Of a stretch of 64,000 nt of DNA, positions 2,661 to 44,398 are shown one piece after another. The translations under genes and the position numbers were made by a program. Every line of letters begins with the position of its first letter. Positions within the stretch are counted from its first letter, which is position 1. The stretch is from NCBI RefSeq assembly GCF_003173355.1, contig NZ_QGMY01000006.1:62001-126000 (forward strand), in the 5' to 3' direction. This DNA is from Methanospirillum lacunae (GTDB lineage: Archaea > Halobacteriota > Methanomicrobia > Methanomicrobiales > Methanospirillaceae). The notes beneath the pieces are model-generated. The model saw only the letters and a program-made list of their open reading frames with translations. It did no database searches and had not been told where the DNA came from.

Positions 2661-5540
2661 CTATGGAGGACCTGGACTGGAAACATTAGGGTCATCCTCA
2701 CCTGAATCAAGCCTCTCATAGCACTGATCACACAGATGCACCTGCGAAACCGGATCAGACCAGACAGCAGCCTTGAGATCACAGACCTGGCAGCGACCAC
2801 TCGGAAAAGACCGCCGCACTAGAGCCTTCTTGTCAATCACACCCGGAAGAGGAATGATAGATGCAACCTCACGCGACACTGCCCGGCGATAACACGAAGA
2901 GCAGAGCATCCGCTGAATATTCTGTGAACAATGAGAAACCCGCTCCTGGTACTGAGTCGGCCGCTTGCCACACACACTGCACCGGTGATGATCAGGAAGA
3001 CCAGGAACCTGGACAAAACTTCGTGAATTCACATCAGAGAGTGACATCTCATAAGGCAAGGTAGCCTCTTCAGGCTCAGGAGAAGACCCGGGATTAGAAT
3101 CATCATGATCATCTGGATCATGATCCTCATCATCACAGAGCCAGACACTCCCCCCCTTCTCCCAGGCATCATACAGCAGAGCATCCCAGAGATACACCCG
3201 GGTTCGTCGCATCGTCGAGCAGCCTTCATCACCTCTCGTCACCGTCCGGTCAAGGTACGACACAGCCGGACACTTATCGAGAAGACCGGAATACGTCTTG
3301 CCGTACGAATGATACCCGTGAAGCAGTTTACCAACCGTGGAGTTCGAAAGCCCGGTCAGCTGCTGCAGCTCAGCAATCGATACCTCTGACTGATTCAGTG
3401 AAGTAAAGGCAGCAATCAGATCACTCTCACGCTTGGTCAGTTTGTTCGCCTGTGCACCAGACTCCCCGTTCAGCGTCTCATAAAGCCGTGCAGCCTCGTC
3501 AAAATCAGCCCGGCTCGCAATCACACACCTGACATTCCCAATCTCTTTGGACTCACGCTGACGCTGATTGAGTGCTGCATTGGTCCTGATCAGATCAAGC
3601 AGCATATCTGGATTTCTCCGATTCTCTGCAGACTGGAACCTGATCCTGGTCGCAAACGGAATCACAACCCAGACCTCTGAGAGTGAATCCCAGATCTGCC
3701 TGCACACCCGGACCTCCTCTGATTCAGGACCGCTGGTAACAGGAAGACTCTCTGCTCCTGACAGGGTCCGCTCAAGCACCCGTTTATCCTGAACCTCGCT
3801 GTCATCGATCCAGCAGGTCAGCATCCGGTTAAAGACCTGATCATCACCCGGACCCTCAACCTTGGCAATCCACCAGACACACCGCTGTGGAATCGTGCAG
3901 ACCTGGACCTTTCTCTCCTTGTTCACGGTCCGGTACAGGAAAGGCTTTTGAAACGACGAGGTAACGCCCTTTAAGACCTCCTGCATCTGGTCAGAAAGAC
4001 TCACATCATCAAGTGAGATCACACTGCCTGCACAGAGATCCTCCATGTAAAAGAGTGCCTTGTCACTCATCCGGCCTTCAAGCCTGAACTTCTTTGGAAC
4101 AAGACTCTTCATCGTCTCAATGGCATGGGACTTCCCTTTCCCAGACTCACCGGTGATAGAGACATGCAGCCCTTTACTGTTGATCACACACCGGGACGCA
4201 AGTGAGTGAACAAGACACTCGGCAACCGTCTGATCACCTTCGTGAACAGATGCAAACGTCTCAAGCATAAACGAGAGCGGATCAGCAGACTCAAGGATCT
4301 CTGTACACCGGGAACTGATCTTCTCATCTATCTCCCCCATCTCTGACTCAATTGCACCGGCCAGTTGAACCTCCGGGTCTGCTGCCTCATACAATGCCCG
4401 TGCCTGTGCAATCTCGTACTCAGTCGGACGACACCGGCCTTCAGCCTCGTTCTTTGCCCTGATTCGCTCTGACCGGAGCCGGGCCAGCCGAGTCTCAATA
4501 TCAGGTTTCACAGGTTCAAACAGGGCCCGAAGTTCAGACCATCGCTGTCTTCCGCCACCACACGAGTCATGGTGACACCCTGCAAAGATCGCACCGTTTG
4601 CAAACTGAATCGCATATGCCCCGTCTGAATGGGCTGATGAGAACGGGCAGTCAGCAAGCACAAAGAGACGGCCACCATTGTATGGTTTCTCTGTATACGA
4701 GAGGTTATGAGTAGAGAGCCAGGATGCTAGATCGATCCCGGTCTCCTGGCTGCGGCTCGTGGATCTCTCCACAGATGTGCGAGTCGAATCAGGCTGCCAG
4801 GATGCAAGCAGCCTTTGAATCTGCTCTGCACTCACTACCGAGGATGAATCTTGCAGACCAGAAGGAATCTTCAGAAGCTTTGATCTCCTATGTGGCCGGT
4901 CAGGAAGATTGTCTCCTTTGCGTGAGATCGTCCCGTATATCTTCCAGATACGTGCAGCGTTGAAGTTCGCTGTATCAACCTTACACTGTGCATCAGAAAA
5001 CCGCCAGTCCAGCAGTTCGAGCACTGATTTCACACACTTCCGGCTCTCTTCATCATTTGAGAGATCAATCCGGTAGAGGAGATGAGCACCATTACCCGAG
5101 TCTCCAACCAGAGGATCAGGCCAGCCCTGCTCAGAAAGAAAGGCTGCTACTGATGAAGCAAGAGAAAGTGCCCGGGCATGTTCTTCATCAGATGACGACA
5201 CTCCCGAGGGCCTGACCGGATCGATATCAATCGGCAGCCAACGCCTCCTGATAATATCAACATCAGATGTCGTGGTATCCTTCCGCTCCAGTCTGTGCTT
5301 GATCCGGTTGGCCCGCCTTGCAAGAAGTGCAGGATTGACTTCGTTGAGTGTGACATAGATCCCGGTTACATGGGCATCCTTCTCACGGTCACAAATATCT
5401 TTGGCAGCAGCGTTCAGGTCGTTATAGTATCCTGAAGATATTCCTTCTCCTGTGATTGCCCTGACTTCGATGACCTGGCCTTGACGGAAAAGAAGTGAAA
5501 GAGTCCTGAAGACCTCGTCCTTTTGGTTGTAGCCGGTCAT
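2661..5540 (-). CDS. Primase-polymerase / ATPase replication protein with C-terminal zinc fingers
   Basis: A 959-residue multidomain protein. The N-terminal 230 residues look like an archaeo-eukaryotic primase (PrimPol): DIDP near residue 103 for metal binding, SGNGAHLLYRID near 148 with the motif II histidine, and NAARIWKIYGT near 195. A primase-type zinc site follows (CPFSSAHSDG...CHHDSCGGG, about 298-328). A P-loop ATPase has Walker A GESGKGKSH near 463 and Walker B VISLDDVS near 508. A winged-helix motif (VSIAELQQLTGLSNSTVGKLL) lies near 715. Two CxxC...CxxC fingers occupy about 850-945. This is the architecture of replication initiators of plasmids, viruses and integrated elements. The gene is followed by a small gene and preceded, 50 bp away, by a nuclease-like gene. 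Confidence 0.8.
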   Translation of the reverse strand: MTGYNQKDEVFRTLSLLFRQGQVIEVRAITGEGISSGYYNDLNAAAKDICDREKDAHVTGIYVTLNEVNPALLARRANRIKHRLERKDTTTSDVDIIRRRWLPIDIDPVRPSGVSSSDEEHARALSLASSVAAFLSEQGWPDPLVGDSGNGAHLLYRIDLSNDEESRKCVKSVLELLDWRFSDAQCKVDTANFNAARIWKIYGTISRKGDNLPDRPHRRSKLLKIPSGLQDSSSVVSAEQIQRLLASWQPDSTRTSVERSTSRSQETGIDLASWLSTHNLSYTEKPYNGGRLFVLADCPFSSAHSDGAYAIQFANGAIFAGCHHDSCGGGRQRWSELRALFEPVKPDIETRLARLRSERIRAKNEAEGRCRPTEYEIAQARALYEAADPEVQLAGAIESEMGEIDEKISSRCTEILESADPLSFMLETFASVHEGDQTVAECLVHSLASRCVINSKGLHVSITGESGKGKSHAIETMKSLVPKKFRLEGRMSDKALFYMEDLCAGSVISLDDVSLSDQMQEVLKGVTSSFQKPFLYRTVNKERKVQVCTIPQRCVWWIAKVEGPGDDQVFNRMLTCWIDDSEVQDKRVLERTLSGAESLPVTSGPESEEVRVCRQIWDSLSEVWVVIPFATRIRFQSAENRRNPDMLLDLIRTNAALNQRQRESKEIGNVRCVIASRADFDEAARLYETLNGESGAQANKLTKRESDLIAAFTSLNQSEVSIAELQQLTGLSNSTVGKLLHGYHSYGKTYSGLLDKCPAVSYLDRTVTRGDEGCSTMRRTRVYLWDALLYDAWEKGGSVWLCDDEDHDPDDHDDSNPGSSPEPEEATLPYEMSLSDVNSRSFVQVPGLPDHHRCSVCGKRPTQYQERVSHCSQNIQRMLCSSCYRRAVSREVASIIPLPGVIDKKALVRRSFPSGRCQVCDLKAAVWSDPVSQVHLCDQCYERLDSGEDDPNVSSPGPP

Positions 5541-31309: not shown

Positions 31310-31516
31310 TTAATGAAGGTTCACTAGTTTGATTTGGATATCAGGTTTAAATCCCACTTTGATCTCGTAAGAGAGGTATAAAACCATTCTCTTGTCTACA
31401 TGATATTCCAGATAACCTGGTTTTTCATCGTCTCGTTCATCATTTCGTACTACAATGAATTGTTTGTTCTCATACCAAATAATCATATCTATGTTACTAT
31501 CATAAAAATTGCACAT
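31310..31516 (-). CDS. Small hypothetical protein
   Basis: A 68-residue frame (starts MCNFYDSNIDMIIWYEN) between the MarR gene and the copy 2 operon, on the same strand as both. It contains alternating hydrophobic segments (YLEYHVDKRMVLYLSYEIKVGF) that could be beta strands. No ribosome site or relatives are recognised; it may be spurious. Confidence 0.35.
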   Translation of the reverse strand: MCNFYDSNIDMIIWYENKQFIVVRNDERDDEKPGYLEYHVDKRMVLYLSYEIKVGFKPDIQIKLVNLH

Positions 31517-31581
31517 TTTTTATAGAGATCAAATTTTATAATCGATATTGACAGGAAATCTGATTTAAGCAAAATAGAAAT

Positions 31582-32019
31582 TTAGTACTTTTTGCTGAAA
31601 TCTTTAATAGTCTGTAGAGAAGATGCAAGGAGTTTAAGATCTTCAGGTTCGTATTTTTCTATATATTTTGCTAATTGTCCATGTATTTGAACCCTGAATT
31701 CACGCAATTTTGTTCGTCCTGTTTCTGTAATTTTTATATATATCACCCTGCGATCTGCAGGATCAAAATGGCGCTCAACATATCCTTCCGTGATCAAGGA
31801 ATCAACGAGTGTAGTCATATGTTGTTTAGGTATGTACATTGCCTTTCCGAGGTTTGTCATACTCTCCATTGGTACCCGGGTAAGATAATGAAGCAAACGA
31901 TACTGTGCACCTTGCTTCCCGGTTACATATGGGTAAATTATGTGACGTAATCGTTCAATTCCAATCTCAAATATATCTGTTAAAATTATAGAAACTTCAT
32001 CTGCGAGTACATCAGCCAT
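31582..32019 (-). CDS. MarR family transcriptional regulator
   Basis: A 145-residue protein with a MarR winged helix: MTNLGKAMYIPKQHMTTLVDSL near 54-75 as helix-turn-helix and the wing HFDPADRRVIYIKITETG near 83-100 with the family's D-x-R-R. It should bind a palindrome as a dimer and release it with a small hydrophobic ligand. A TATA-like TTTATACA lies about 20 bp upstream of the ATG, indicating a short leader. The nearest downstream operon is the CARDB/MMPL copy 2, a sensible target because MarR proteins often control RND-type exporters. Confidence 0.88.
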   Translation of the reverse strand: MADVLADEVSIILTDIFEIGIERLRHIIYPYVTGKQGAQYRLLHYLTRVPMESMTNLGKAMYIPKQHMTTLVDSLITEGYVERHFDPADRRVIYIKITETGRTKLREFRVQIHGQLAKYIEKYEPEDLKLLASSLQTIKDFSKKY

Positions 32020-32280
32020 CTGATCTATTGTATAAATAAGTCAGGAAGATTGATAATCTATAGAGGTAGTTATACCATTTTTAGTTAGTAAGTGAATGTA
32101 AGTAACTTTGAGTTATAAAAAAAAAGAACCCCAATTATTGATTTTACTCGTGAATCACTTTCAAGGATAAATACCAATTCATCATCCAGATATCCTGGAT
32201 TGATACTCTTGGCCTGATAACCACGCTCAAATTTTTAATGTTCCCATGGATAGCAGAGATTAGAATCTTGCAGATCTGCA

Positions 32281-32930
32281 ATACCAGGCAGAATTCCACC
32301 TAAAAAAGTTATATCACTAAAGCCCAGTTCAGATCCTTATACAGGCATCAAATGCCCGGATTAGCAAAGTATCTTTCTCCACATCACCAAATGCCAAGAG
32401 ATCGATAACAGTATCACCAAACATATACCCCACTCACCCTAACAGAAACCGGATCAAACGGAAATCAAGGTCTCTTCAGAATTCAGGGGTGTTATTTTTA
32501 CCGATGTAAATGTTACCGAATAAACGTTCATGCGTTTCACGTTGAGGGATCAAATCTCGAGATCATGGGACTAATAACCCGGATCCATATTTAATTGCCT
32601 ATTCAGGAAACGATATCAATGACTACAGGTGAACGACGTTGACTAAGAAATTAAATTTTGGATTTGTCCTCGGTCTTCCACATCAGATTTTACACCAAGC
32701 CATTAGTCATGATCATGGAAGATGGCGAATTAAGGTAAATATTACCAGACCTTTCAGATGGGTTGGATAGAATGGAAAAACTGACCGTCCCCCCATAAGT
32801 GGAAACACTATTCACATTAATGGGACCGGATTTGATCATAGGAGCGGAATCAGTGCATGGAATGGAAACCAGGTAAACATACAAGCCACTGATTCGTTGA
32901 TCATCGGACAGGAATATGGAATAGAATGAT
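32281..32930 (+). pseudogene. Decayed copy of the beta-helix segment of the giant surface protein (copy A)
   Basis: This noncoding DNA aligns over about 650 bp, with many gaps and frame breaks, to 40990-41665 of the large gene. Shared runs include CAGAATTCCACCT, GGATCAAATCTCGA and AATAACCCGGATCC. Near the end it repeats GGAATCAGTGCATGG. The order and orientation are the same as in the intact gene, so this is a relic of a paralogous gene or of a local duplication. It is more diverged than the second relic at 37724-38148. Confidence 0.75.
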
Positions 32931-33136
32931 CAGAAATTTGTCTCGATTTTTTTATTCGAAACACTCTAGAGGTACGGTTCTGACACTGACTAATGAACGT
33001 TATATGATTCATTCATGGTTAATTCAGGTTGATAAATCCTGATAACAGGATGTGCCAATATTACCAGGCAGGTGGATAATATCAACATATTTAAAAATAC
33101 AAACGATAATCTATCGATATAAGTGAGTGAGAGATC

Positions 33137-33832
33137 ATGAATTATGGAACATTGTTGAGTTTTCTGGTAATTTGTAGTTTATGCGTTGTATCACTGGCGA
33201 TTGCCGAGAATAATACAGGAGGAGATAAGAATTCTACCTCCATATGGAATGGAACATGGTCCAACCCGGATTATTTGATGTATATCACACAAAACCAGTC
33301 AGGGATTGCTGGAGAATATGTGCCAACCGATTTAAATGAATTAGATCCGGGACGACTTGAGGGAAATGTTTCTGATGATGGGAAAACATTTTCAGGCATA
33401 TGGATTGAAACAGGGTCAAATACCTACACTCTGTCAGATGATAAGTTGTCATTTACCATTTCAGGATTTGCTGACCCATATGGGTCCATGAGTAAACCTG
33501 CAGGGTATTCATACAATGCGACGAGAATCGGGGAAATAATCGATCCCAAGAATCCCTGGACTGGTAACTGGGTAACTGAGAAAAAATCCTATCATCTCAC
33601 ACAAAATGGAACTCAGTTATCTGGTGTGAATGAGCCTCTTACAAATGTAAATGATGAAGTCGGAAACCTGTCCGGAACTATTTCTGAAAATGGTACCGTA
33701 TACACCGGGAACTGGACAGAGAAAGGGAGGTTTACTTTTGTCCTGGCAGATGACGGTTTATCGTATAATGCAACCATTACAAAGAACCTTGATCCAAATG
33801 CATTTGTTGAGCATATGGTATTTTCAAAGTAA
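33137..33832 (+). CDS. Secreted protein with two related beta domains
   Basis: A 231-residue protein with a signal peptide (residues about 4-23, ending VVSLAIAE). Two internal repeats can be read: IWNGTWSNPDYLMYITQNQSGIAG...FSGIWIETG and PWTGNWVTEKKSYHLTQNGTQLSG...YTGNWTEKG, each about 80 residues, with several N-x-S/T sites. The layout suggests an avidin- or lipocalin-like small barrel outside the cell. No family is named with confidence. It opens the surface-protein locus. Confidence 0.7.
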   Translation: MNYGTLLSFLVICSLCVVSLAIAENNTGGDKNSTSIWNGTWSNPDYLMYITQNQSGIAGEYVPTDLNELDPGRLEGNVSDDGKTFSGIWIETGSNTYTLSDDKLSFTISGFADPYGSMSKPAGYSYNATRIGEIIDPKNPWTGNWVTEKKSYHLTQNGTQLSGVNEPLTNVNDEVGNLSGTISENGTVYTGNWTEKGRFTFVLADDGLSYNATITKNLDPNAFVEHMVFSK

Positions 33833-33917
33833 CCTTTTTTTGAGGAAAATGCTCCGCATTTTCATAAGATGGACCTGATGAGAAACATCATGTCATTTTG
33901 ATAATATGTTATAACAT

Positions 33918-34475
33918 ATGATGAAATCAATGAATACAAGATTCTTTTTACTACTATTTTGTTTCCTCATTTCTATTCCATTGTGTATTGCTTCAGGATC
34001 TCAAATTGTTGGATCTGAACCGAAGGATAAATTGTCATGGTTTGCCAATGTTTCAGATCTGATTGTATATGGAAAAACATCAGACAATGAGATGAAATGG
34101 AGTGATATTGGGATAATAACTGTGAACTATTTATTTGTTCAAAAAATAATTACGCAGAATAATAGTTCAAACATCACCGAAGGTTCATCTATTCCTATAT
34201 ACATTGAAGGGGGCAAAGTTGACGATCCCGTTCAAGCTGCTGCACATTTTGGTATTTATGGACAAACGGCAGATTGGGAATGGGGTATTAATCCAAATAC
34301 TACTCTCGTCTATTTCCTAAAGAAAAGCAATAATGGCATGTATCATCTATATTATTCTGAAACTGTAGATCCTGATTCCGAATATTTCAGAAGCAACCTG
34401 ACTGAATTGAAAGTTCTCATCGGTGAGATCATACAGGGTCATCCGGTTCCTGAAAGAACATATAAACATGAATAA
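33918..34475 (+). CDS. Secreted protein, tandem paralogue family member 1
   Basis: A 185-residue protein with a signal peptide (MNTRFFLLLFCFLISIPLCIA). Marks shared with the proteins at 35633 and 36254 are DLIVYGKT, GSSIPIYIEGG, DPVQAAAH, the WEWGI segment, TTLVYFL and a closing TVDPDSEYFRSNLTELK...PVPERTYKHE. The regular alternation suggests a beta-rich extracellular domain. The family is unknown to me. The gene and its downstream DNA were duplicated with the block at 36254. Confidence 0.65.
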   Translation: MMKSMNTRFFLLLFCFLISIPLCIASGSQIVGSEPKDKLSWFANVSDLIVYGKTSDNEMKWSDIGIITVNYLFVQKIITQNNSSNITEGSSIPIYIEGGKVDDPVQAAAHFGIYGQTADWEWGINPNTTLVYFLKKSNNGMYHLYYSETVDPDSEYFRSNLTELKVLIGEIIQGHPVPERTYKHE

Positions 34476-34521
34476 TATTCAATCCCGGTGAAAAAATATT
34501 TCAAATCGCTCCATTATTCCT

Positions 34522-35183
34522 ATGATTCTGGGGTTTATTATCATAGGGGGTGCGGTTCATCCGGTTGCCGCATACAACACAGATGTTTATCAGGATGGAG
34601 GTATTTTAACCGGAGAACCGGTTAAAACTCATCCAGGTTACAACCCTGAAACTCTTAAGCAAATGAACGAAACCAGGGATTTTTTTCTTGCGATAAGACA
34701 AAACAGGTCGAATCTCACCCATGAAGAACAAAAATATCTCCCAATATTCTTTATTTGACGTTGCTTCAAAAAACCTCTGAAAATTTGTCTGATTAATTTT
34801 TTGTTCAATTTCAGAGGTCTGATTATTTTAAACCTGCTACTTATCAGGAAGGGACGACAATAAAAAAAACTCCAGATATAGTTCTTTTAGAAATAATGGT
34901 GTATTCTGGGAATTCCACCCATATCCTCGATCCCTATATATATTAGGAATTTAGTAGGGATGAAGAGGAGAGGGGATTGGATGCCTGGGTGGAAGTTTCA
35001 AAGATTAAAGAAATCGCAAATCTATCTGAAGTGGCGATAATTCGCAGAGTAAGTCTTGGTTTATTTAATATAGATACAGTAGAAATCCAGAGGAATGCTA
35101 CTCTCCACTTAAAAATAGTGTCCGACGTTAGTGTGATAAGGGCACAACAACGGCATAGAAAATTGCATATTTATCAGATGTAA
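34522..35183 (+). pseudogene. Decayed secreted-protein gene related to that at 36952-37629
   Basis: A 78-residue frame (34522-34758) begins with a signal-like helix (MILGFIIIGGAVHPVAAYN) and ends early. After a frame break, DNA from about 34890 encodes STHILDPY and then, from 34977, MDAWVEVSKIKEIANLSEV. These match THILDPYLYP and VDAWVEFSKMKEIANISEV in the protein at 36952-37629. The DNA just before (ATCGCTCCATTAT) is also shared with the block before that gene. The first part does not match it clearly, so two relics may be joined here. Confidence 0.6.
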
Positions 35184-35314
35184 TTTCAATTTATCCCACT
35201 TCAGGCCCTCTCACGAATTCGGATCTAATAAATACTGAAGGAAACATTTTACTTCATTCCTAGGATGTGAGAGTCAAATAAGTTTTAATTGTAGCCTGAT
35301 GAGATGTCAAAAAA

Positions 35315-35486
35315 AGCAATAGTTGTACAATATACCCTTGCAATCTGAATCAAATTCGAAAGATTAGTTTACCTTACCGACAATATCCAATTACATAAAT
35401 TAAATTTAGAGTTAACCGTGAAAGATTACTGTTTGGTGATAGGAGAGAGGGCACCATAAATAAGAAAGCGTTCATGTGTTTTAATA
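35315..35486 (+). pseudogene. Relic of the promoter and first codons of the giant surface gene
   Basis: About 170 bp align with 38405-38576, including TTGTACAATATA, CAATCTGAATCAAATTCGAA and ATGTGTTTTAATA. In the relic the start codon region reads ATAAATAAGAAAGCG where the intact gene has TTATGAAAAAAACG, so it cannot be translated from the same start. Homology stops soon after the first codons. Confidence 0.75.
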
Positions 35487-35632
35487 GGGATTTTACTTCT
35501 TGTATTGAAACATCAACGAATTAATTCTTAATGGAACATATGAACCACATTCATGAGACCTATTGATTGTCGATTTGTTAGTAGTGGTACTATTTCGGAT
35601 ATTATGATCGGTTGACAGAAGGGAGGATGGAG

Positions 35633-36205
35633 ATGAATTCAAAGATTATATGGGTAGTTTTTGGTGTTCTCATTAGTATGGCATGTTGTATTGTTATGGG
35701 TACTCAAACATTCGGGCCTGAACCACAAGATAATCTACCACGGATAGTTAATTATTCAGATTTAATTGTATATGGAACAACATCAGCAAATGAAGCAAAA
35801 TGGAGTGATATAGGGATAATAACAACCAATTCGATATATGTTCAGGATATAATAAAGCAAAATTCCTCTTCAAACTTCACTGTGGGATCAGATATTCCAA
35901 TTTATATCATCGGAGGTACGATTCATGATCCGGTCCAGGCAGCCGCACATGGAGGAGTAGGAAGAGTAAGAACAGATTGGGAGTGGGGGATCGATCAAAA
36001 TAGTACTCTTGTATACTTTATTCAAATAGATGAGAAAGGGAAATATCACCTGATTTATTCTGAAAGTGTAGATCCTAATTCCGAATATTCTCGAAGCAAT
36101 CTCACCGAATTGAAATCCCAAATCTCTGAAATACTACATGGTATTCCTGTTCCTGAGAGAACTCCAAACCCAACTCAAAAAATACCTAACAATAACTCCC
36201 TCTAA
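35633..36205 (+). CDS. Secreted protein, tandem paralogue family member 2
   Basis: Start chosen at the ATG at 35633 (MNSKIIWVVFGVLISMACCIVMG), the Met conserved in member 3, with GGAGG upstream. 190 residues with a signal peptide. Family marks are DLIVYGTT, GSDIPIYIIGG, DPVQAAAH, WEWGIDQNSTLVYF and SVDPNSEYSRSNLTELKSQI. The first 40 codons and the 5' leader are nearly identical in DNA to member 3, so the duplication is recent. The C-terminal tail (TPNPTQKIPNNNSL) differs. Confidence 0.65.
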   Translation: MNSKIIWVVFGVLISMACCIVMGTQTFGPEPQDNLPRIVNYSDLIVYGTTSANEAKWSDIGIITTNSIYVQDIIKQNSSSNFTVGSDIPIYIIGGTIHDPVQAAAHGGVGRVRTDWEWGIDQNSTLVYFIQIDEKGKYHLIYSESVDPNSEYSRSNLTELKSQISEILHGIPVPERTPNPTQKIPNNNSL

Positions 36206-36253
36206 TTCTCTTATCACCGATATTATGATCGATTGACAGTAGGTAGGATTGAG

Positions 36254-36799
36254 ATGAATTCAAAGATTATATGGGAAGTTTTTGGTGTTCTCATTAGTAT
36301 AGCATGTTGTATTGTTACGGGTACTCAAACATTCGGGCCTGAACCCATTGATAAATTACCATTGTATACAAACATTTCCGATCTAATAGTATATGGAAAA
36401 ACATTTGAAACTGATACGAAATGGGTTGATGATAATATTCTTACCTTAAATGAAGTCAAGATCTATGATATCCTAAAACTAAATAGTACTTTAAACTTTA
36501 CAATTGGTTCATCGGTTCCAATTTATGTTGAGCGCGGAAGAGTTAATGATCCCATTCAGGCAGCTGCACATAACGGCGTATATAGATCAGAAGCTGATTG
36601 GGAATTAGGTATCAAATCGAATACTACTCTCGTCTATTTTCTAATGAAAAATAATAATGGCATGTATCATCTTGTATATGTTGAAACTGTAGACCCTAAT
36701 TCCGAATATTCCCGAAGCAACCTGACTGAATTAAAAACTCTCATCGGTGAGATCATGAAGGGTCTTCCCGTTCCTGAAAGAACATATAAACATGAATAA
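36254..36799 (+). CDS. Secreted protein, tandem paralogue family member 3
   Basis: 181 residues from the ATG at 36254 (MNSKIIWEVFGVLISIACC). The signal peptide resembles that of member 2, but the C-terminal third (NNNGMYHL, GEIMKGLPVPERTYKHE) is closer to member 1. It may therefore be a hybrid formed by recombination or gene conversion between the two neighbours. Family marks DPIQAAAH and TTLVYFL are kept. Function unknown. Confidence 0.65.
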   Translation: MNSKIIWEVFGVLISIACCIVTGTQTFGPEPIDKLPLYTNISDLIVYGKTFETDTKWVDDNILTLNEVKIYDILKLNSTLNFTIGSSVPIYVERGRVNDPIQAAAHNGVYRSEADWELGIKSNTTLVYFLMKNNNGMYHLVYVETVDPNSEYSRSNLTELKTLIGEIMKGLPVPERTYKHE

Positions 36800-36951
36800 T
36801 AGTCAAACCCGGTTGAAAATATTTTTAATCGCTCCATTATAGTTTTAATTTTGGTGTTTATTACAATATGAATAAAGATTTATCCAGTTGTCACATAGGA
36901 TCCAGACATGGATCATGATGAAGTCTCTATTGCAGATATGTTATCTTTGTT

Positions 36952-37629
36952 ATGGATACAATCAGAGAGAAACTAATTATGACTACTATTATTAGTGCAA
37001 TTCTGGAAAAATTTGCTAATTTCATGAATTGTATCTATAATAAAATAATGTTTTATTCTGATGTATTAGTAATTTTGATTATAATTTTTGGAACGATTTC
37101 TATACCCGTCGCAGGAAACGAGAATCCATATAGTCTATGGATTTTTAAAGATGACGGAATAACATCTAATGCCACCATAACATCAGATTATTCATATCTT
37201 GGGTTTAATAAATCAATTTACAGTCCTTCAGAGATGAAATTTTCAACAGATTTGTTATACCTTCTTTCTCTAGGAAAAGATCCAAGGATAAATTCTGAAA
37301 TGATCAATTCCACAATTCAAATATTAAGGAATGCTAGCGTATACAAATTGGCGGGTGAGACATTTGTCGAATCTGAAAAACTTGGAAATGGAACCACTGC
37401 GAAAACAGATATGGTTTATGTTACTATAGGAGTTGTTCCAGGAACATCTACTCATATTCTTGACCCTTATCTTTATCCTCCAATAAGAAGAGAGGAGGAC
37501 TATATTGGTTTATTTAATAAATGGAATGGAAATGGCGTAGATGCCTGGGTTGAATTTTCAAAAATGAAAGAGATCGCCAATATTTCTGAAGTTATAGATA
37601 TTCAGACTTTAACTACTGGATCTCCATAA
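36952..37629 (+). CDS. Secreted hypothetical protein
   Basis: A 225-residue frame. The likely signal peptide starts at MFYSDVLVILIIIFGTISI (Met at about 37048), so the earlier 32 codons may be untranslated. The mature part has Asn-rich segments with N-x-S/T sites and ends THILDPYLYPPIRREEDYIGLFN...VDAWVEFSKMKEIANISEV. A decayed relative lies at 34890-35183. No family recognised. Composition is strongly AT-rich like the other genes of the locus. Confidence 0.55.
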   Translation: MDTIREKLIMTTIISAILEKFANFMNCIYNKIMFYSDVLVILIIIFGTISIPVAGNENPYSLWIFKDDGITSNATITSDYSYLGFNKSIYSPSEMKFSTDLLYLLSLGKDPRINSEMINSTIQILRNASVYKLAGETFVESEKLGNGTTAKTDMVYVTIGVVPGTSTHILDPYLYPPIRREEDYIGLFNKWNGNGVDAWVEFSKMKEIANISEVIDIQTLTTGSP

Positions 37630-37723
37630 AGAGGCCCATAAAAGTTGAAAAGTGATCTACTTCAACATATCTGATAATTAGAACTTTTTTATGTTTGTCA
37701 CGACTGGGTGTGAAAGAATTAAA

Positions 37724-38148
37724 GACCGTTCAGCGGAATCGAACTCAATGGAAAGATAGCAACCCTTGCCATCAGTGGAAACACCATTCATATCAACGGG
37801 ACCGGGACCGATTCAGGAATAGGATCTGACCGAAACAACGGAATCAGTGCATGGGGTGGAAGCCGGGTAAATGTTACTGCCACTTATTTACCGATCACCG
37901 GCCAGGGAGGAGCAATCATTATAGTATGTTGCAAAAAGAATTAGAATAATGGTTCTGAAAAAATCTTGGTTTGAGGGCACATTCACCTATAATCGGTAAT
38001 GCACGATTATTGAAAAATGATTATTATAAAAGCAAATGCTGCATACTATAATGTATCCTGTCCCGGATGTACTCTCGGTCAAATAGTCAGCAACACTGCA
38101 GGTAAATCCGGTATCGTTGGTGGAGTAAACGGAATATTCCTGACCGGA
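37724..38148 (+). pseudogene. Decayed copy of the beta-helix segment of the giant surface protein (copy B)
   Basis: Matches 41468-41822 of the large gene with high DNA identity by eye (for example CCGTTCAGCGGAATCGAACT and GGAATCAGTGCATGGGGTGG). It has deletions of about 20 and 36 bp and a 127-bp insertion with terminal inverted repeats. It begins and ends abruptly with no flanking coding sequence. Younger than copy A at 32281-32930 because it is less diverged. Confidence 0.8.
37922..38048. mobile_element. MITE-like 127-bp insertion with terminal inverted repeats
   Basis: Compared with the intact gene (GCAATCATCAATGTATCC), the relic is interrupted after GCAATCAT. The inserted DNA starts TAGTATGTTGCA and ends TGCTGCATACTA, which are inverted repeats (7 perfect, then 3 more of 5). 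It is flanked by TA on both sides (37920-37921, 38049-38050), the target duplication expected of IS630/Tc1-mariner-type transposition. It encodes nothing. A transposase elsewhere would be needed to move it. Confidence 0.6.
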
Positions 38149-38404
38149 TAATTTATCCAGGGTTTGAGAGTAAATTCAAAGAAGAGTGATGATTAATAGG
38201 TTACTCATCCCGGAAAGACCTTGTCGAATAAAATAGCATCTAATGATACAGCTCATCAATTTACACAATAACCGAAGAAGATAGTGGATAGTTCAATTTA
38301 AGGGCTAATAAAAACCGGGTAATGAATCATAATATCCCAAATATGAGACTCAACATGTTCAATCAAATGAGTGATGGATTTAACCTGAACGCAATACCAA
38401 AAAT

Positions 38405-38545
38405 AACTATACTTGTACAATATACTAGACAATCTGAATCAAATTCGAAAGATTAATTTACTGTACAGACAATAGCCAATTACTTAAATTGAAATTTTAA
38501 GTAAACTGGGAATGATTGTCACTTGATGATGGGAGAAGGGGTATT
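38405..38545 (+). promoter_or_regulatory. Leader and promoter region of the giant surface gene
   Basis: This AT-rich stretch holds TTGTACAATATA (38413-38424), which may serve as TATA box or operator, and a purine-rich ribosome site GGGAGAAGGGG at 38531-38541, five bases before the ATG at 38546. A diverged copy lies at 35315-35460. TACTTGTACAATAT also occurs in the PadR operator at 56253-56270 (on the opposite strand). Confidence 0.4.
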
Positions 38546-41500
38546 ATGAAAAAAACGATTATGTGTTTTAATAAAGAGTTACCATTAAGGTTTAGATTTA
38601 AGAGGAATTTATGTCTTGAATTTTTTTTTATCTTAATTTTTATTTTATTTTGGATTTCATCAGTTTCAGCTATCCCTCTTGAAGAAAGAAATGGAAACGA
38701 TTCAATTACGAATCGTGGAGAGCAAGTCTTAATGCCTATTTCACTAGATCCTGCTTTTGTTAAGGCTCTTACAGACCATAAAGGAACCATACCAGATCCT
38801 CAAGTATATGGACCATACAATCGATCTACTTTAAATATTTATTCAAATCCTCCATTAAGTTCTGTTGTACTAGATCCTGCTTTTATTAAAGCTCTTACAG
38901 ATCATAAAGGCACTCTCCCCGATTCTCAAGTAAATCCGATTCATGATGTATCTGTATATGGATCAAATATACAATCATATGAATCCCAGTATGATTTACG
39001 GGATCAATTAAAAGTTTCACCAGTAAAAAACCAAAGTTATTGGCCAACATGTTGGGCCCATGCTGCATTAGCATCTCTTGAATCAACTTCTCTTCCATCA
39101 GAAGATTTTGACTTTTCTGAAAAGAATTTAGTAAATTGCGCTAATTTTAGTTTACCTGTTCCAGGAGGGGGTGGAAATGATAAAATGGCAGCAGCTTACC
39201 TGACGAGATGGGGTGGTCCAATAGATGAACAAACTGATCCATATCCCACTGGAAGTACTTGGGACAGAAATTCAATATCGAGTAACCCTGTTAAACATGT
39301 ACAAGATGTTATTTATTTTCCTGGACGCACAAACGGGGAAAATTTTGATATAATAAAAGATGTTCTAAAAAATTTTGGGGCTGTTAGTTCCTCAATCTTT
39401 TGGGATGATAGTAATTATAATAGTTCATCATTTTCTTATTATCAACCATTAAATCAAAATGAAACTGTATTAACTGATGGATACCGTCATAGCATGACAA
39501 TTATTGGGTGGGATGATAATTATCCTGCACAGAATTTTACGATTATACCCCCTGGTAATGGTGCCTGGATTGTAAAAAATTCTGAAGGAATATCATGGGG
39601 GGATCAGGGTTATTTAAGAGTTTCATATTATGACAAACACTTTGGATCATCAATCCCATTAGATGATAGTGGGAATTTAACCTCTGCCACTTATCTCGGC
39701 GAGAGTCCCTCAAATTACCAGAATATTTATCAATATGATCCACTTGGATTTACTGTGGCCAATTCAATTAGTGATGAAAATAATTCATCATATTATGCAA
39801 ATATATTCACTGCATCATCTAATTGCGTAATAACAGGCGTAGGTTTCTATTCTGTAGACGTAAATATCCCCTATGAGATAAATATCTATAAAAATCCATT
39901 AAATAGTCCAATAAATGGAACTCTTGCTAGTACCTATAATGGCACAGAAAAATACATGGGTTATCATACAGTTCCAATAACACCAAATTCAAATAATACA
40001 TTTAGATCAGGAGAGCTTTTTTCAGTTGTAATAAAAGTTTATCATAGATCAAATAACGCTGATATTCCCATTGAATGGCCTATTCCTAATTATAGCGAGA
40101 GGGCTACAGGAGGAGTCGGTCAGAGTTATTTTAGTAATGACGGAATAAATTGGGCAGATTTAAACCAACCAATTATTACTAATAGTAATGTATGTTTGAA
40201 AGCGTATACCTCTACACCCCTCACAATCACCAGCATTATCCCCAATACCGGAGAAAATACCGGTCCTGTTACCATTACCAACCTTTCAGGAACCAACTTT
40301 GTATCTAATACTAATGTTTTCCTCTCAAGAAATAGCCTGCCAATTATTAATGCAACAAATATATCAGTTCTATCTTCCACTACAATTACCTGCACCCTAA
40401 ATATTACCGATGCCGAACCCGGAGCATGGAACGCCACTGTTCAAAATCCAGACGGCCAGAGCGACACACTTGAAAATGTGTTTGCTATCTCGCCATACAG
40501 TTGTCGGATCTCGCCCCACAGTACTTATTACAAAAACGGGATCCTCTATACCTATCCCGATTGTCCACCCATCATTTCATCTGTCTCCCCTACCACCGGC
40601 GTGAACACCGGATCAGTATCTATAACCAATCTTTCCGGAGAAAACTTCAACACCAGTGCAACCGTCAACCTGACCCGGACCGGACAACCAAACATAACCG
40701 CAACAAACGTGCAGGTTGTCTCTTCATCCCAGATCACCTGCACTCTTCCTCTCACCGGAAAAGCTGCCGGACAATGGAATATCATAGTTACAAATCCTGA
40801 CGGTCAGTCAGGAATCCTTGCAAACGGATTCACCGTCACTGCTGCAAACCCCGGGAACACACCCTTTGTCATCGATCCTTCAGCGATGAACACCTTTGAT
40901 GGCCAGTATCTCAAATCGCGGGGATACGGATGGTGTGACTTTGGAGGAGTCAATAACTCGTATTATAAGATCACCCTCGCCGGGACCACGCAATACCCGA
41001 CAGAATTCCACCTCAAAAAGAGTTTCACCACCAAAGCCCAGTTCGGGATCTTAGTGCAGGCATCAAATGTCAGGATCAGTGGAGTGGATCTCTCCACAGC
41101 ACCCAACGCTGACCAGAGACCGGTAAACAGCATCACCAATACATATGCCCCACTCACCCTGGCAGAAACCGGAGCAGCCGGGATCAAGGTCACTTCAGGA
41201 TTCACCGGGGTCAAACTGGTCGATGTAAACGTAGTAGGGCAGAATGTTCCTGCAGTTCATGTCGATGGATCAAATCTCGATATCATCGGAACCAATAACC
41301 CGGATCCGTACCTGACAACGTATTCAGGAAGCGGCATAAATGACAACTGGGGAACGACCCTGACCGGAAAATTAAACTCAGGATACGGTCTTGGTCTCCT
41401 CCAACAGACAACATCACGAAGTTCGGCAGTTACGATTACCGGAGATGGCGGAGCAGGAGTGAATATATCCGGACCGTTCAGCGGAATCGAACTCAATGGA

Positions 41501-44398
41501 AAGACAGCAACCCTTGCCATCAGTGGAAACACCATTCGTATCAACGGAACTGGTACTGATTCAGGAACCGGTTCTGACCGGAACAGCGGAATCAGTGCAT
41601 GGGGTGGAAGCCGGGTAAATGTAACTGCCACTGATTCATCGATCACCGGCCAGGAGTATGGAATATATGGTCAGGGAGGAGCAATCATCAATGTATCCTG
41701 TCCCGGATGCACGCTTGGTCCAATCGTCAGCAGCACTGCCGGAAGACCATACAGGGAACAAGTCCGCAGTGCAGGTAAATCCGGTATCGTTGGTGGAGTA
41801 AACGGAATATTCCTGACCGGAACAAGTAGTGCAGGATATGGAACAGTCAGCATCGCAAATACCACTGTGCAGGGAAATACCGGGTATGGAATAAACCTCA
41901 GCCAGGCTTCAGGATATAGCATAACTGTTACAAATCCGGCATCAGTCATCGGAGCTCTTGGCAAATTCGGAACCACGGATAGTTCGTCAAACCAGATCAC
42001 CTCAGGAAATTCCGTAATTACAGCGACAGGCACAGGACCGTATCCGGTACATATCTCGCTTGATAGTATCCAGGGTCCGGATCCATTCAACCTGAAGATA
42101 TTCAATGAATCTGGATCAGTTGTATATGACATCACCAACTGGAACCTGCTCCCGACAGGAGTGACATTCAATTCAACAGACCGTAACGTATGGTTCAACT
42201 CCTCAACCCTGGAGATCTACTCGGCAGAAAAATACGCCCATGCAGAATCAACACTTACCGTTACCGGGATAGAACCATCTGCAGGGTATTGTGGAAAGAC
42301 CACCCGGATTGAAAACCTTTCAGGGACCTTCAATCTTCAGGCAACCAATACGAGCGTGATAATTACCCGTTCAGGGGTTACCATTCCGGTAACCGGTGTT
42401 TCTATTGAGACTGCTGGAAAGATCACTGGAAATCTTTCAGTACCGTCAGATGCACAGACTGGCCCCTGGCAGGTTGCAGTTTTCCAGGATGGGAAAGTTA
42501 GTGAGGGGAACGTCACCTTTACTCTATCCCGCGAGGTTTCCGCTCCGACAGTCACAACACTACAGGCAGAAAATGTATCCACCCGGTCTGCCCTTCTCGC
42601 AGGTAACCTGACCGGTACAGGCGGGGAAAACTGTTTGGTATTCTTCAGGTATGGAAAAACCCAGGAGAACCTTTCTGCATACACATCACCGGTTACACTC
42701 AATGAAACCGGAAACTTCAGTACTCTGGTCACCGGTCTTGATCCGGGAACAACCTGGTATTATCAAGCCTCGGCAAACAACTCAGCAGGAGCCGGACAGG
42801 GTGGAATTGTAACCTTCAGGACAGACTCTGTCTTCACTAATCCGGTGGTATACACAATACAGCCATCATCAGGAACCCAGGGAGAAGATATTGCAATTAC
42901 AAACCTTTCAGGAATCTTCAACACCTCTGCACAAACTACCGGAATATATCTCTCACGGTCGGGCACCAATATCAGTGCATCCGATGTTACCATCAGATCC
43001 GCAGACAGTATCACCGGTAATTTCTCACTTCCGCCCCTGGTACAGACCGGCTCCTGGCAGATTATTGTTCAGCAGGATGGATGGCTAAGCAGCGAAAATG
43101 TAACATTTACCATAAATCCTGCGACGTATACTATCAACGCCTCCGCTTCTGCAGGAGGGACAATCAGCCCAGCAGGCGTAATCCAGGTATTGGCAGGATC
43201 GAACCAGACCTGTTCCATAAACCCGGGCCAGGGATATCATACATCCGGGGTTTTCATTGATAACACCAGTGCAGGAGTGCTCAACACATACACGTTCGCT
43301 AATGTGACATCTAATCATACCATTCATGCAGAATTTGCTGTAAATGGTGCAGTCAACTACACCATCAATGCCACTTCTTCATCTGGTGGAACTATCAGTC
43401 CATCCGGTTTGATCCCGGTACTTGCAGGATCCAATCTGACATGTACTATGAACCCTGATCAGGGATACCGGATATCAGACGTCTTTGTTGATAATGCAAG
43501 CATGGGACAGATCGCAACATACACATTCACAAACATATCCTCACAACATCAGATCCGGGCAGAATACACACAAACCCTTTCAAGTCCCGTAGTTTTGGGA
43601 GTTACACCATCATCTGCTCCCAGAAATAGTGTGGCTACACTCATCATTACCGGTGAGAATTTCTATGGAAATGAGCAGGTTGATCTTGTACGGAATGGAA
43701 CCGGTAACCTTACCAGGATTGCAACACGTTCAGGGAACAACCTCCAGGTTACAGGGCTCGACCTGACAAATGCCCAGGTTGGATCATACGATATCTGGGT
43801 GACCAACCTCACAACCAGGATGTCCGGATGGAAAAAAGATGCTTTCTCTGTCACAACCAATGATCAGAGATTTTACACCATCACAACCCGGTCTGATCAA
43901 TACGGATTTATCACCCCTCCCGGACCTTTCAGGGTCAGACCGGGATCTCAGGCAACCTTTGCCATGCATACTATCATGGGTGCTGATATTGAGAATGTTA
44001 CTGTTGATGGAGTTCCGGTAGTTCTTGGAGCTCATAATGACTATACATTCAAAACCATATCTGCTGATCACACTCTCTATCTCCACACGAAATTTTCAGA
44101 AAAAAAAGTCCATGCTGACTTCACTGTAAACCAGACAACCGGTAAGACGCCAATGACTGCTCAATTTACTGATACATCGACCGGATCACCTTCACAATGG
44201 GTATGGCTCTTTGGTGATGCGAAAACATCAACACTTCAGAATCCTGCTCACACTTATAATTTGCCGGGGAAATATTCAGTACGGCTTACAGTAAGAAACT
44301 CAAGAAGCATTGATACCATTGAGAAAAACAGGATTATATCGGTGACCCGGGGAAGATATACAGGTTTTGAAACTGATAACAACGAAACTATTGAATAA
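38546..44398 (+). CDS. Giant mosaic surface protein with papain-like protease domain
   Basis: 1950 residues from the ATG at 38546. Order: signal peptide (about 10-43); two repeats LDPAFVKALTDHKGT near 67 and 109, perhaps a propeptide; papain-fold C1 protease about 149-360 with oxyanion Gln in KNQ, Cys in PTCWAHAA, His in GYRHSMTIIGW and Asn in WIVKNSEG; lectin-like domain to about 552. TIG-like Ig domains at about 557-648 and 672-768 and a beta-helix at 775-1180 follow. Three more TIG-like units, a fibronectin-like unit, InlB-like repeats at 1525-1675 and a final PKD domain at 1855-1933 complete it. The protease residues look complete. DNA up to about 40200 is AT-rich; the rest is richer in GC. 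Extracellular, no clear C-terminal anchor. Confidence 0.88.
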   Translation: MKKTIMCFNKELPLRFRFKRNLCLEFFFILIFILFWISSVSAIPLEERNGNDSITNRGEQVLMPISLDPAFVKALTDHKGTIPDPQVYGPYNRSTLNIYSNPPLSSVVLDPAFIKALTDHKGTLPDSQVNPIHDVSVYGSNIQSYESQYDLRDQLKVSPVKNQSYWPTCWAHAALASLESTSLPSEDFDFSEKNLVNCANFSLPVPGGGGNDKMAAAYLTRWGGPIDEQTDPYPTGSTWDRNSISSNPVKHVQDVIYFPGRTNGENFDIIKDVLKNFGAVSSSIFWDDSNYNSSSFSYYQPLNQNETVLTDGYRHSMTIIGWDDNYPAQNFTIIPPGNGAWIVKNSEGISWGDQGYLRVSYYDKHFGSSIPLDDSGNLTSATYLGESPSNYQNIYQYDPLGFTVANSISDENNSSYYANIFTASSNCVITGVGFYSVDVNIPYEINIYKNPLNSPINGTLASTYNGTEKYMGYHTVPITPNSNNTFRSGELFSVVIKVYHRSNNADIPIEWPIPNYSERATGGVGQSYFSNDGINWADLNQPIITNSNVCLKAYTSTPLTITSIIPNTGENTGPVTITNLSGTNFVSNTNVFLSRNSLPIINATNISVLSSTTITCTLNITDAEPGAWNATVQNPDGQSDTLENVFAISPYSCRISPHSTYYKNGILYTYPDCPPIISSVSPTTGVNTGSVSITNLSGENFNTSATVNLTRTGQPNITATNVQVVSSSQITCTLPLTGKAAGQWNIIVTNPDGQSGILANGFTVTAANPGNTPFVIDPSAMNTFDGQYLKSRGYGWCDFGGVNNSYYKITLAGTTQYPTEFHLKKSFTTKAQFGILVQASNVRISGVDLSTAPNADQRPVNSITNTYAPLTLAETGAAGIKVTSGFTGVKLVDVNVVGQNVPAVHVDGSNLDIIGTNNPDPYLTTYSGSGINDNWGTTLTGKLNSGYGLGLLQQTTSRSSAVTITGDGGAGVNISGPFSGIELNGKTATLAISGNTIRINGTGTDSGTGSDRNSGISAWGGSRVNVTATDSSITGQEYGIYGQGGAIINVSCPGCTLGPIVSSTAGRPYREQVRSAGKSGIVGGVNGIFLTGTSSAGYGTVSIANTTVQGNTGYGINLSQASGYSITVTNPASVIGALGKFGTTDSSSNQITSGNSVITATGTGPYPVHISLDSIQGPDPFNLKIFNESGSVVYDITNWNLLPTGVTFNSTDRNVWFNSSTLEIYSAEKYAHAESTLTVTGIEPSAGYCGKTTRIENLSGTFNLQATNTSVIITRSGVTIPVTGVSIETAGKITGNLSVPSDAQTGPWQVAVFQDGKVSEGNVTFTLSREVSAPTVTTLQAENVSTRSALLAGNLTGTGGENCLVFFRYGKTQENLSAYTSPVTLNETGNFSTLVTGLDPGTTWYYQASANNSAGAGQGGIVTFRTDSVFTNPVVYTIQPSSGTQGEDIAITNLSGIFNTSAQTTGIYLSRSGTNISASDVTIRSADSITGNFSLPPLVQTGSWQIIVQQDGWLSSENVTFTINPATYTINASASAGGTISPAGVIQVLAGSNQTCSINPGQGYHTSGVFIDNTSAGVLNTYTFANVTSNHTIHAEFAVNGAVNYTINATSSSGGTISPSGLIPVLAGSNLTCTMNPDQGYRISDVFVDNASMGQIATYTFTNISSQHQIRAEYTQTLSSPVVLGVTPSSAPRNSVATLIITGENFYGNEQVDLVRNGTGNLTRIATRSGNNLQVTGLDLTNAQVGSYDIWVTNLTTRMSGWKKDAFSVTTNDQRFYTITTRSDQYGFITPPGPFRVRPGSQATFAMHTIMGADIENVTVDGVPVVLGAHNDYTFKTISADHTLYLHTKFSEKKVHADFTVNQTTGKTPMTAQFTDTSTGSPSQWVWLFGDAKTSTLQNPAHTYNLPGKYSVRLTVRNSRSIDTIEKNRIISVTRGRYTGFETDNNETIE

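Follow-up and report, generated by a model that had tools for sequence, protein, structure and literature searches.

The gingipain genes of Porphyromonas gingivalis (Kgp, RgpA and HagA) encode large surface proteases in which a propeptide and a catalytic head are carried on repetitive adhesin domains; in the available portion of PMC5266723, their head and adhesin variants are described as mosaic via recombination and strain-to-strain transfer. The orphan tips of the Rhs (PMC3967940) and MafB (PMC4287609) systems are truncated copies near a full-length gene that combine an alternative variable end with homology to the constant part, and for Rhs a stretch of 522 bp shared with the constant part at 95% has been proposed to permit tip swapping (PMC3967940). 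In silent-cassette variation, exemplified by vls of Borreliella, one complete gene is accompanied by homologous partial copies in the same locus. For archaea, the available portion of PMC11532034 describes methanogen adhesin-like proteins as very large surface proteins with complex domain architecture; these come from a different archaeal order from Methanospirillum, and their likeness to the protein studied here is one of size and complex architecture.

We analysed a window of 64,000 nucleotides from Methanospirillum lacunae (positions 62001-126000 of contig 6, in a genome of 3.74 Mb in 25 contigs) that contains a giant gene for a predicted surface protease and, upstream of it, a row of partial copies. 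By analogy, this locus appears to work most like the gingipain genes and the Rhs/MafB orphan-tip loci. It is a member of neither group, because its heads contain no C25 catalytic domain by Pfam (C1, S8 and M10 are found instead) and its variable end is N-terminal. The arrangement of the predicted protein resembles that of gingipains; whereas gingipains keep one peptidase family according to the same partial source, the body here is combined with papain, subtilase and matrixin-like heads. The setting is also archaeal, and a tandem row of truncated heads is not among the features that the available portion of PMC5266723 describes for gingipains. The likeness to orphan tips lies in the pairing of a full-length gene with nearby truncated copies. 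In Rhs and MafB, however, the variable end is a C-terminal toxin with an immunity gene and the copies lie downstream, whereas here it is an N-terminal protease and they lie upstream; the polymorphic-toxin order of a constant N-terminal part and a variable C-terminal tip is reversed, and the small ORFs at the locus resemble head domains rather than partner genes. The relics in the window lack catalytic domains, again unlike orphan tips. As in vls, there is one complete, candidate expressed gene with homologous partial copies, but those in the window include no intact variable cassette, stops and deletions mark the relics, no switching is seen in the window, and host immunity is not involved in a free-living methanogen. 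A literature search for this locus returned no report. If a conserved surface protein has changed its catalytic class while remnants of other versions persist beside it, the locus is a directly readable archaeal record of domain shuffling, and one in which to test whether array recombination is a source of surface-enzyme diversity in archaea, as it is for bacterial gingipains and polymorphic toxins.

The giant gene (Table 1) encodes, in order, a signal sequence, a papain-type peptidase, a lectin-like domain, TIG repeats, a central region, further repeats and a PKD domain, an architecture that suggests display at the cell surface. At the sequence level, the predicted peptidase falls in papain family C1A by its match to the C1 profile, and the translation contains the Cys, His and Asn motifs TCWAHA, YRHSMTIIGW and VKNSEGISWGDQGY. 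GC content is lower in heads than in bodies: 34% (38516-40200) versus 48% (40584-44398) in the window, 37% versus 49% in a second Methanospirillum genome, G007, and 36% versus 44% in Methanospirillum stamsii. The central region had been called a beta-helix in the original prediction; no beta-helix profile of Pfam matched it, a PDB profile search gave chance-level matches only, and its structure model (pLDDT 32) is too low in confidence for fold comparison. A plasmid collection searched with the body gave no match. Ahead of the papain domain, in the N-terminal part of the gene, an 81-base direct repeat (80%; 38729-38809 and 38855-38935) codes LDPAFVKALTDHKGT twice.

Table 1. Features of the giant-gene locus, in window positions
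Feature	Positions	Strand	Basis
Fragment 1, decayed copy of central body region	32278..32934	+	71% to 40990-41674, E 1e-84
ORF185, NTR/TIMP-like domain, homologue of the N-terminal domain of the matrixin-type head	33918..34475	+	M. stamsii match, family search, predicted fold
Decayed twin of ORF225 C-terminal part	34851..35060	+	tblastn 48% over 79 columns, E 5e-15
Copy of promoter and first codons, papain type	35308..35487	+	78% to 38398-38573, E 3e-33
ORF197, second tandem NTR-like paralogue	35612..36205	+	direct repeats D1, D2, D5; 61% protein identity to ORF185
ORF188, third tandem NTR-like paralogue	36233..36799	+	direct repeats, protein match
ORF225, homologue of G007 subtilase-type pro-region	36952..37629	+	46% over 208 residues, E 2e-47
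Fragment 2, central body region in broken pieces	37724..38148	+	92%, 88%, 98% to gene
Promoter region of giant gene, homologous to G007 promoter	38398..38545	+	70% over 149 columns
Giant gene, predicted surface protease, 1960 aa	38516..44398	+	later ATG at 38547
Head: predicted papain-type peptidase (aa 157-371), lectin-like domain (aa 404-565)	38984..40210	+	PF00112 E 2e-21, PF18560 E 1e-37, GC
Head/body breakpoint zone, inside last TIG repeat	40575..40665	+	identity jump vs G007
Shared body: conserved central region, repeats, C-terminal PKD domain	40660..44398	+	91% to G007; dS 0.28

The central body region is present in 3 of 108 genomes of the family, all from one genus: the window genome, G007 (one contig of 3.93 Mb) and G009 (M. 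stamsii Pt1, a draft in which the body contig spans 34205 bases); in a scan of genome contigs, M. stamsii alone matched. On this common body sit unrelated heads, papain-type in the window, subtilase-type in G007 and matrixin-like in M. stamsii, the last carrying the motif HEFGHW. The nearest relative of the papain-type head within the genus is about 40% identical. Searches of the window genome found neither a second papain-type head of this kind nor a matrixin (M10-type) head, and its subtilase catalytic domains lie only outside the locus (37-41% identity). Between the window and G007, the body is 91% identical in both protein and DNA; other stretches common to the two are 66-83% identical. 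Whereas six other orthologues, all drawn from one genomic region, give dS values of 0.79-1.32 and differ at 36-55% of fourfold sites, the body gives 0.28 and 19%, so it was most likely exchanged between the species after their separation. The promoter region, at 70%, looks older. No flanks are conserved around the gene between the window and G007, where the neighbours are scattered.

Truncated upstream copies are present in all three species. In G007, a frameshifted copy of TIG and body sequence (1.08 kb) lies ~3.5 kb upstream of its counterpart in the gene, to which it is 96% identical; from this truncated copy up to the start of the gene, G007 and the window can be aligned in part (61% over 477 columns). 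Clusters of sites at which this copy agrees with the window gene hint at mosaicism. At L032 8480-8760, the copy starts right after the stop codon of a sulfate-transporter-like gene, and its TIG-like opening stretch is absent from the complete G007 gene. In M. stamsii, a unit comprising the N-terminal domain, matrixin head and TIG repeats is duplicated on contig C13 (copy 1, frameshifted) just upstream of the complete gene; contig C18 bears another such copy, which a transposase-like ORF splits, and one more fragment. Both longer copies stop at a common point in the last TIG repeat, and the same spacer follows all three. The 3' spacer of the C18 copy is as after copy 1 on C13; C18 and C13 may form one array. 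The transposase-like ORF (L087 4465-6057) lies inside the head of the C18 copy.

Paired copies also show a sharp step in identity at the junction of head and body. Across the last TIG repeat, identity between the window and G007 is 62-67% at its start and then 93-100%; the break is best placed at alignment position 81, and none of 2000 permutations gave one as strong. Against its own gene, the truncated copy of G007 goes from 39% to 95-97%; the part before the break resembles a different TIG repeat, and the copy therefore probably once carried a different head. Copy 1 of M. stamsii differs from the complete gene by 28% before the break and 4% after it, again with no permutation in 2000 as strong, and the dS values between the two are 0.98, 0.75 and 1.00 for three segments of the head and 0.11 for the TIG repeats. 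Because constraint alone is unlikely to produce a drop of such size within a gene, recombination explains it. In the TIG part, identity among the three M. stamsii copies is about 93-98%, whereas between their heads it varies from 57% to 96%. A step in identity or dS between paired copies at a breakpoint, as expected of tandem mosaic genes shaped by recombination, is present here, and these sharp steps, together with the unrelated heads, point to recombination and head exchange in evolutionary time.

In a blastn comparison of window positions 31500-38520 with the giant gene, we recovered two broken copies of the central region and one copy of the promoter and start, all upstream and in the same orientation, as originally predicted and with coordinates that had been correct to a few bases. 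A search of the whole genome gave no DNA-level body or promoter copies beyond this locus. The differing degrees of decay described earlier are likewise borne out: 5 in-frame stops and about 47 gap columns interrupt fragment 1. Differences between fragment 1 and the gene fall on the three codon positions as 52/51/87, compared with 1/3/36 between the gene and its G007 counterpart over the same stretch, and fragment 1 is thus a decaying pseudogene beside a strongly constrained gene. Fragment 2 opens with a piece (37724-37906) equivalent to gene positions 41472-41654 (92%, E 2e-70); after an unrelated stretch follow 38050-38099, equivalent to 41690-41739 (88%), and 38094-38148, equivalent to 41767-41821 (98%). 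Although decay of the fragments as pseudogenes would also follow if segments of a large gene had undergone ordinary neutral tandem duplication without any exchange of heads here, and broken copies are common near large repetitive genes, such an origin is improbable as a full account, since unrelated heads on a 91% identical body and the sharp steps in dS and identity need recombination.

Overlooked in the original prediction, the ORFs that separate the fragments likewise look like parts of alternative heads from the same gene family. ORF185 matches the M. stamsii stretch L033 at 396-599 and 3009-3374. For ORF225, a genus-wide search recovers G007, and the remaining genus matches begin at residue numbers of at least 123. 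Pfam and NCBIfam searches with the small ORFs gave nothing convincing; the predicted fold of ORF185, ORF197 and ORF188 is NTR/N-TIMP-like (agrin NtA, Z 10.3; N-TIMP-1, Z 9.3; model pLDDT 69). A homologous NTR-like domain is fused ahead of the matrixin in copy 1 of M. stamsii (ORF 240-1352), and a more distant fusion of NTR-like and matrixin-like domains forms a 1005-residue protein of genome G003. By these G007 and M. stamsii homologies, 33918-38148 comprises subtilase- and matrixin-type pieces, a papain-type start and a body fragment. The order of ORF225 and fragment 2 suggests that they could have been one gene.

The frames of ORF185, ORF197 and ORF188 are open, with signal sequences and dN/dS of 0.21-0.35, and some of them may be working genes. 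We doubt the broader proposal that the inter-fragment ORFs work as genes in their own right, perhaps coding small secreted NTR/TIMP-like proteins that regulate the giant protease, with the debris confined to the promoter copy and the two body fragments. In animals, N-TIMP is an inhibitor of metalloproteases, and a role of this kind would suit the open frames, the signal sequences, the dN/dS values and a predicted fold with Z about 10; yet M. stamsii and G003 have the homologous domain built into the protease, the window genome yielded no M10-type protease, and a decayed twin of ORF225 is present. A 231-residue secreted-looking ORF (33137-33832), located between fragment 1 and the NTR-like ORFs, matched nothing in Pfam or NCBIfam and had no homologue in the searched G007 and M. 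stamsii stretches.

The history that we favour, with a probability of roughly 0.7, is that a tandem protease array arose, swapped heads and decayed, the row in the window being the wreckage of earlier versions of the gene. Members of such an array would have a common C-terminal body and different N-terminal protease heads. Initially, a unit of promoter, head and body start would be duplicated in tandem upstream of one complete gene, as is seen in M. stamsii and would have occurred in the window. Recombination at the TIG repeats or the body start would then replace the head of the complete gene, with partners either from within the array or from incoming DNA of other Methanospirillum species; the breakpoints are present in the sequences, and the recombination events would be their source. 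Finally, displaced units would lose their catalytic domains and decay, as seen in fragments 1 and 2 and as would also hold for ORF225 and the NTR-like ORFs, whose frames are still open. The head-swap comparison covers three genomes, one strain each, with draft contigs in repeats. By this history, the head at this locus would have been replaced in this lineage, the papain head would have succeeded an earlier head type and, judging from the architecture, a change of head would alter the substrate range. Arrays such as that of M. stamsii could still be live.

The original prediction went further and envisaged a possible reservoir for gene conversion or domain exchange, similar in outcome to antigenic variation. 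Repeated duplication and domain exchange hold up, given the different heads on the same body, the breakpoints and the dS steps, but the part likened to antigenic variation does not: the relics in this genome lack catalytic domains, fragment 1 decays as a pseudogene would, and fragment 2 is equidistant from its own gene and that of G007 (0.889 each), so there is no sign of ongoing conversion. In an active silent reservoir, upstream copies would donate tracts by gene conversion and so vary the surface protein within the population. Tandem copies have evidently recombined in M. stamsii and the end of fragment 2 is identical to the gene at 54 of 55 positions, but as a conversion tract this end was rejected as not significant (P 0.054), the array in the window holds no alternative catalytic head, and a crossover joining fragment 2 to the gene would remove promoter and head. 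We consider such a reservoir very improbable, and a working one in the window genome is unlikely given that no relic keeps a catalytic domain.

A wider proposal, which we hold only tentatively and think unlikely, is that head switching is live in Methanospirillum: body-less, promoter-bearing heads upstream of one complete gene, as in M. stamsii, would recombine through near-identical TIG repeats and so, both within a strain and across species, replace the expressed head on a constant surface body, even with one of another catalytic class; the window would then be a worn-out example. A live system is conceivable in M. stamsii because copies with the matrixin motif exist there, despite the frameshift and the transposase-like ORF. 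In that species, a frameshift in a run of ~ten A (L033 about 3416-3430) separates the complete gene from its N-terminal domain, and could reflect misassembly, a genuine mutation or a phase-variable tract.
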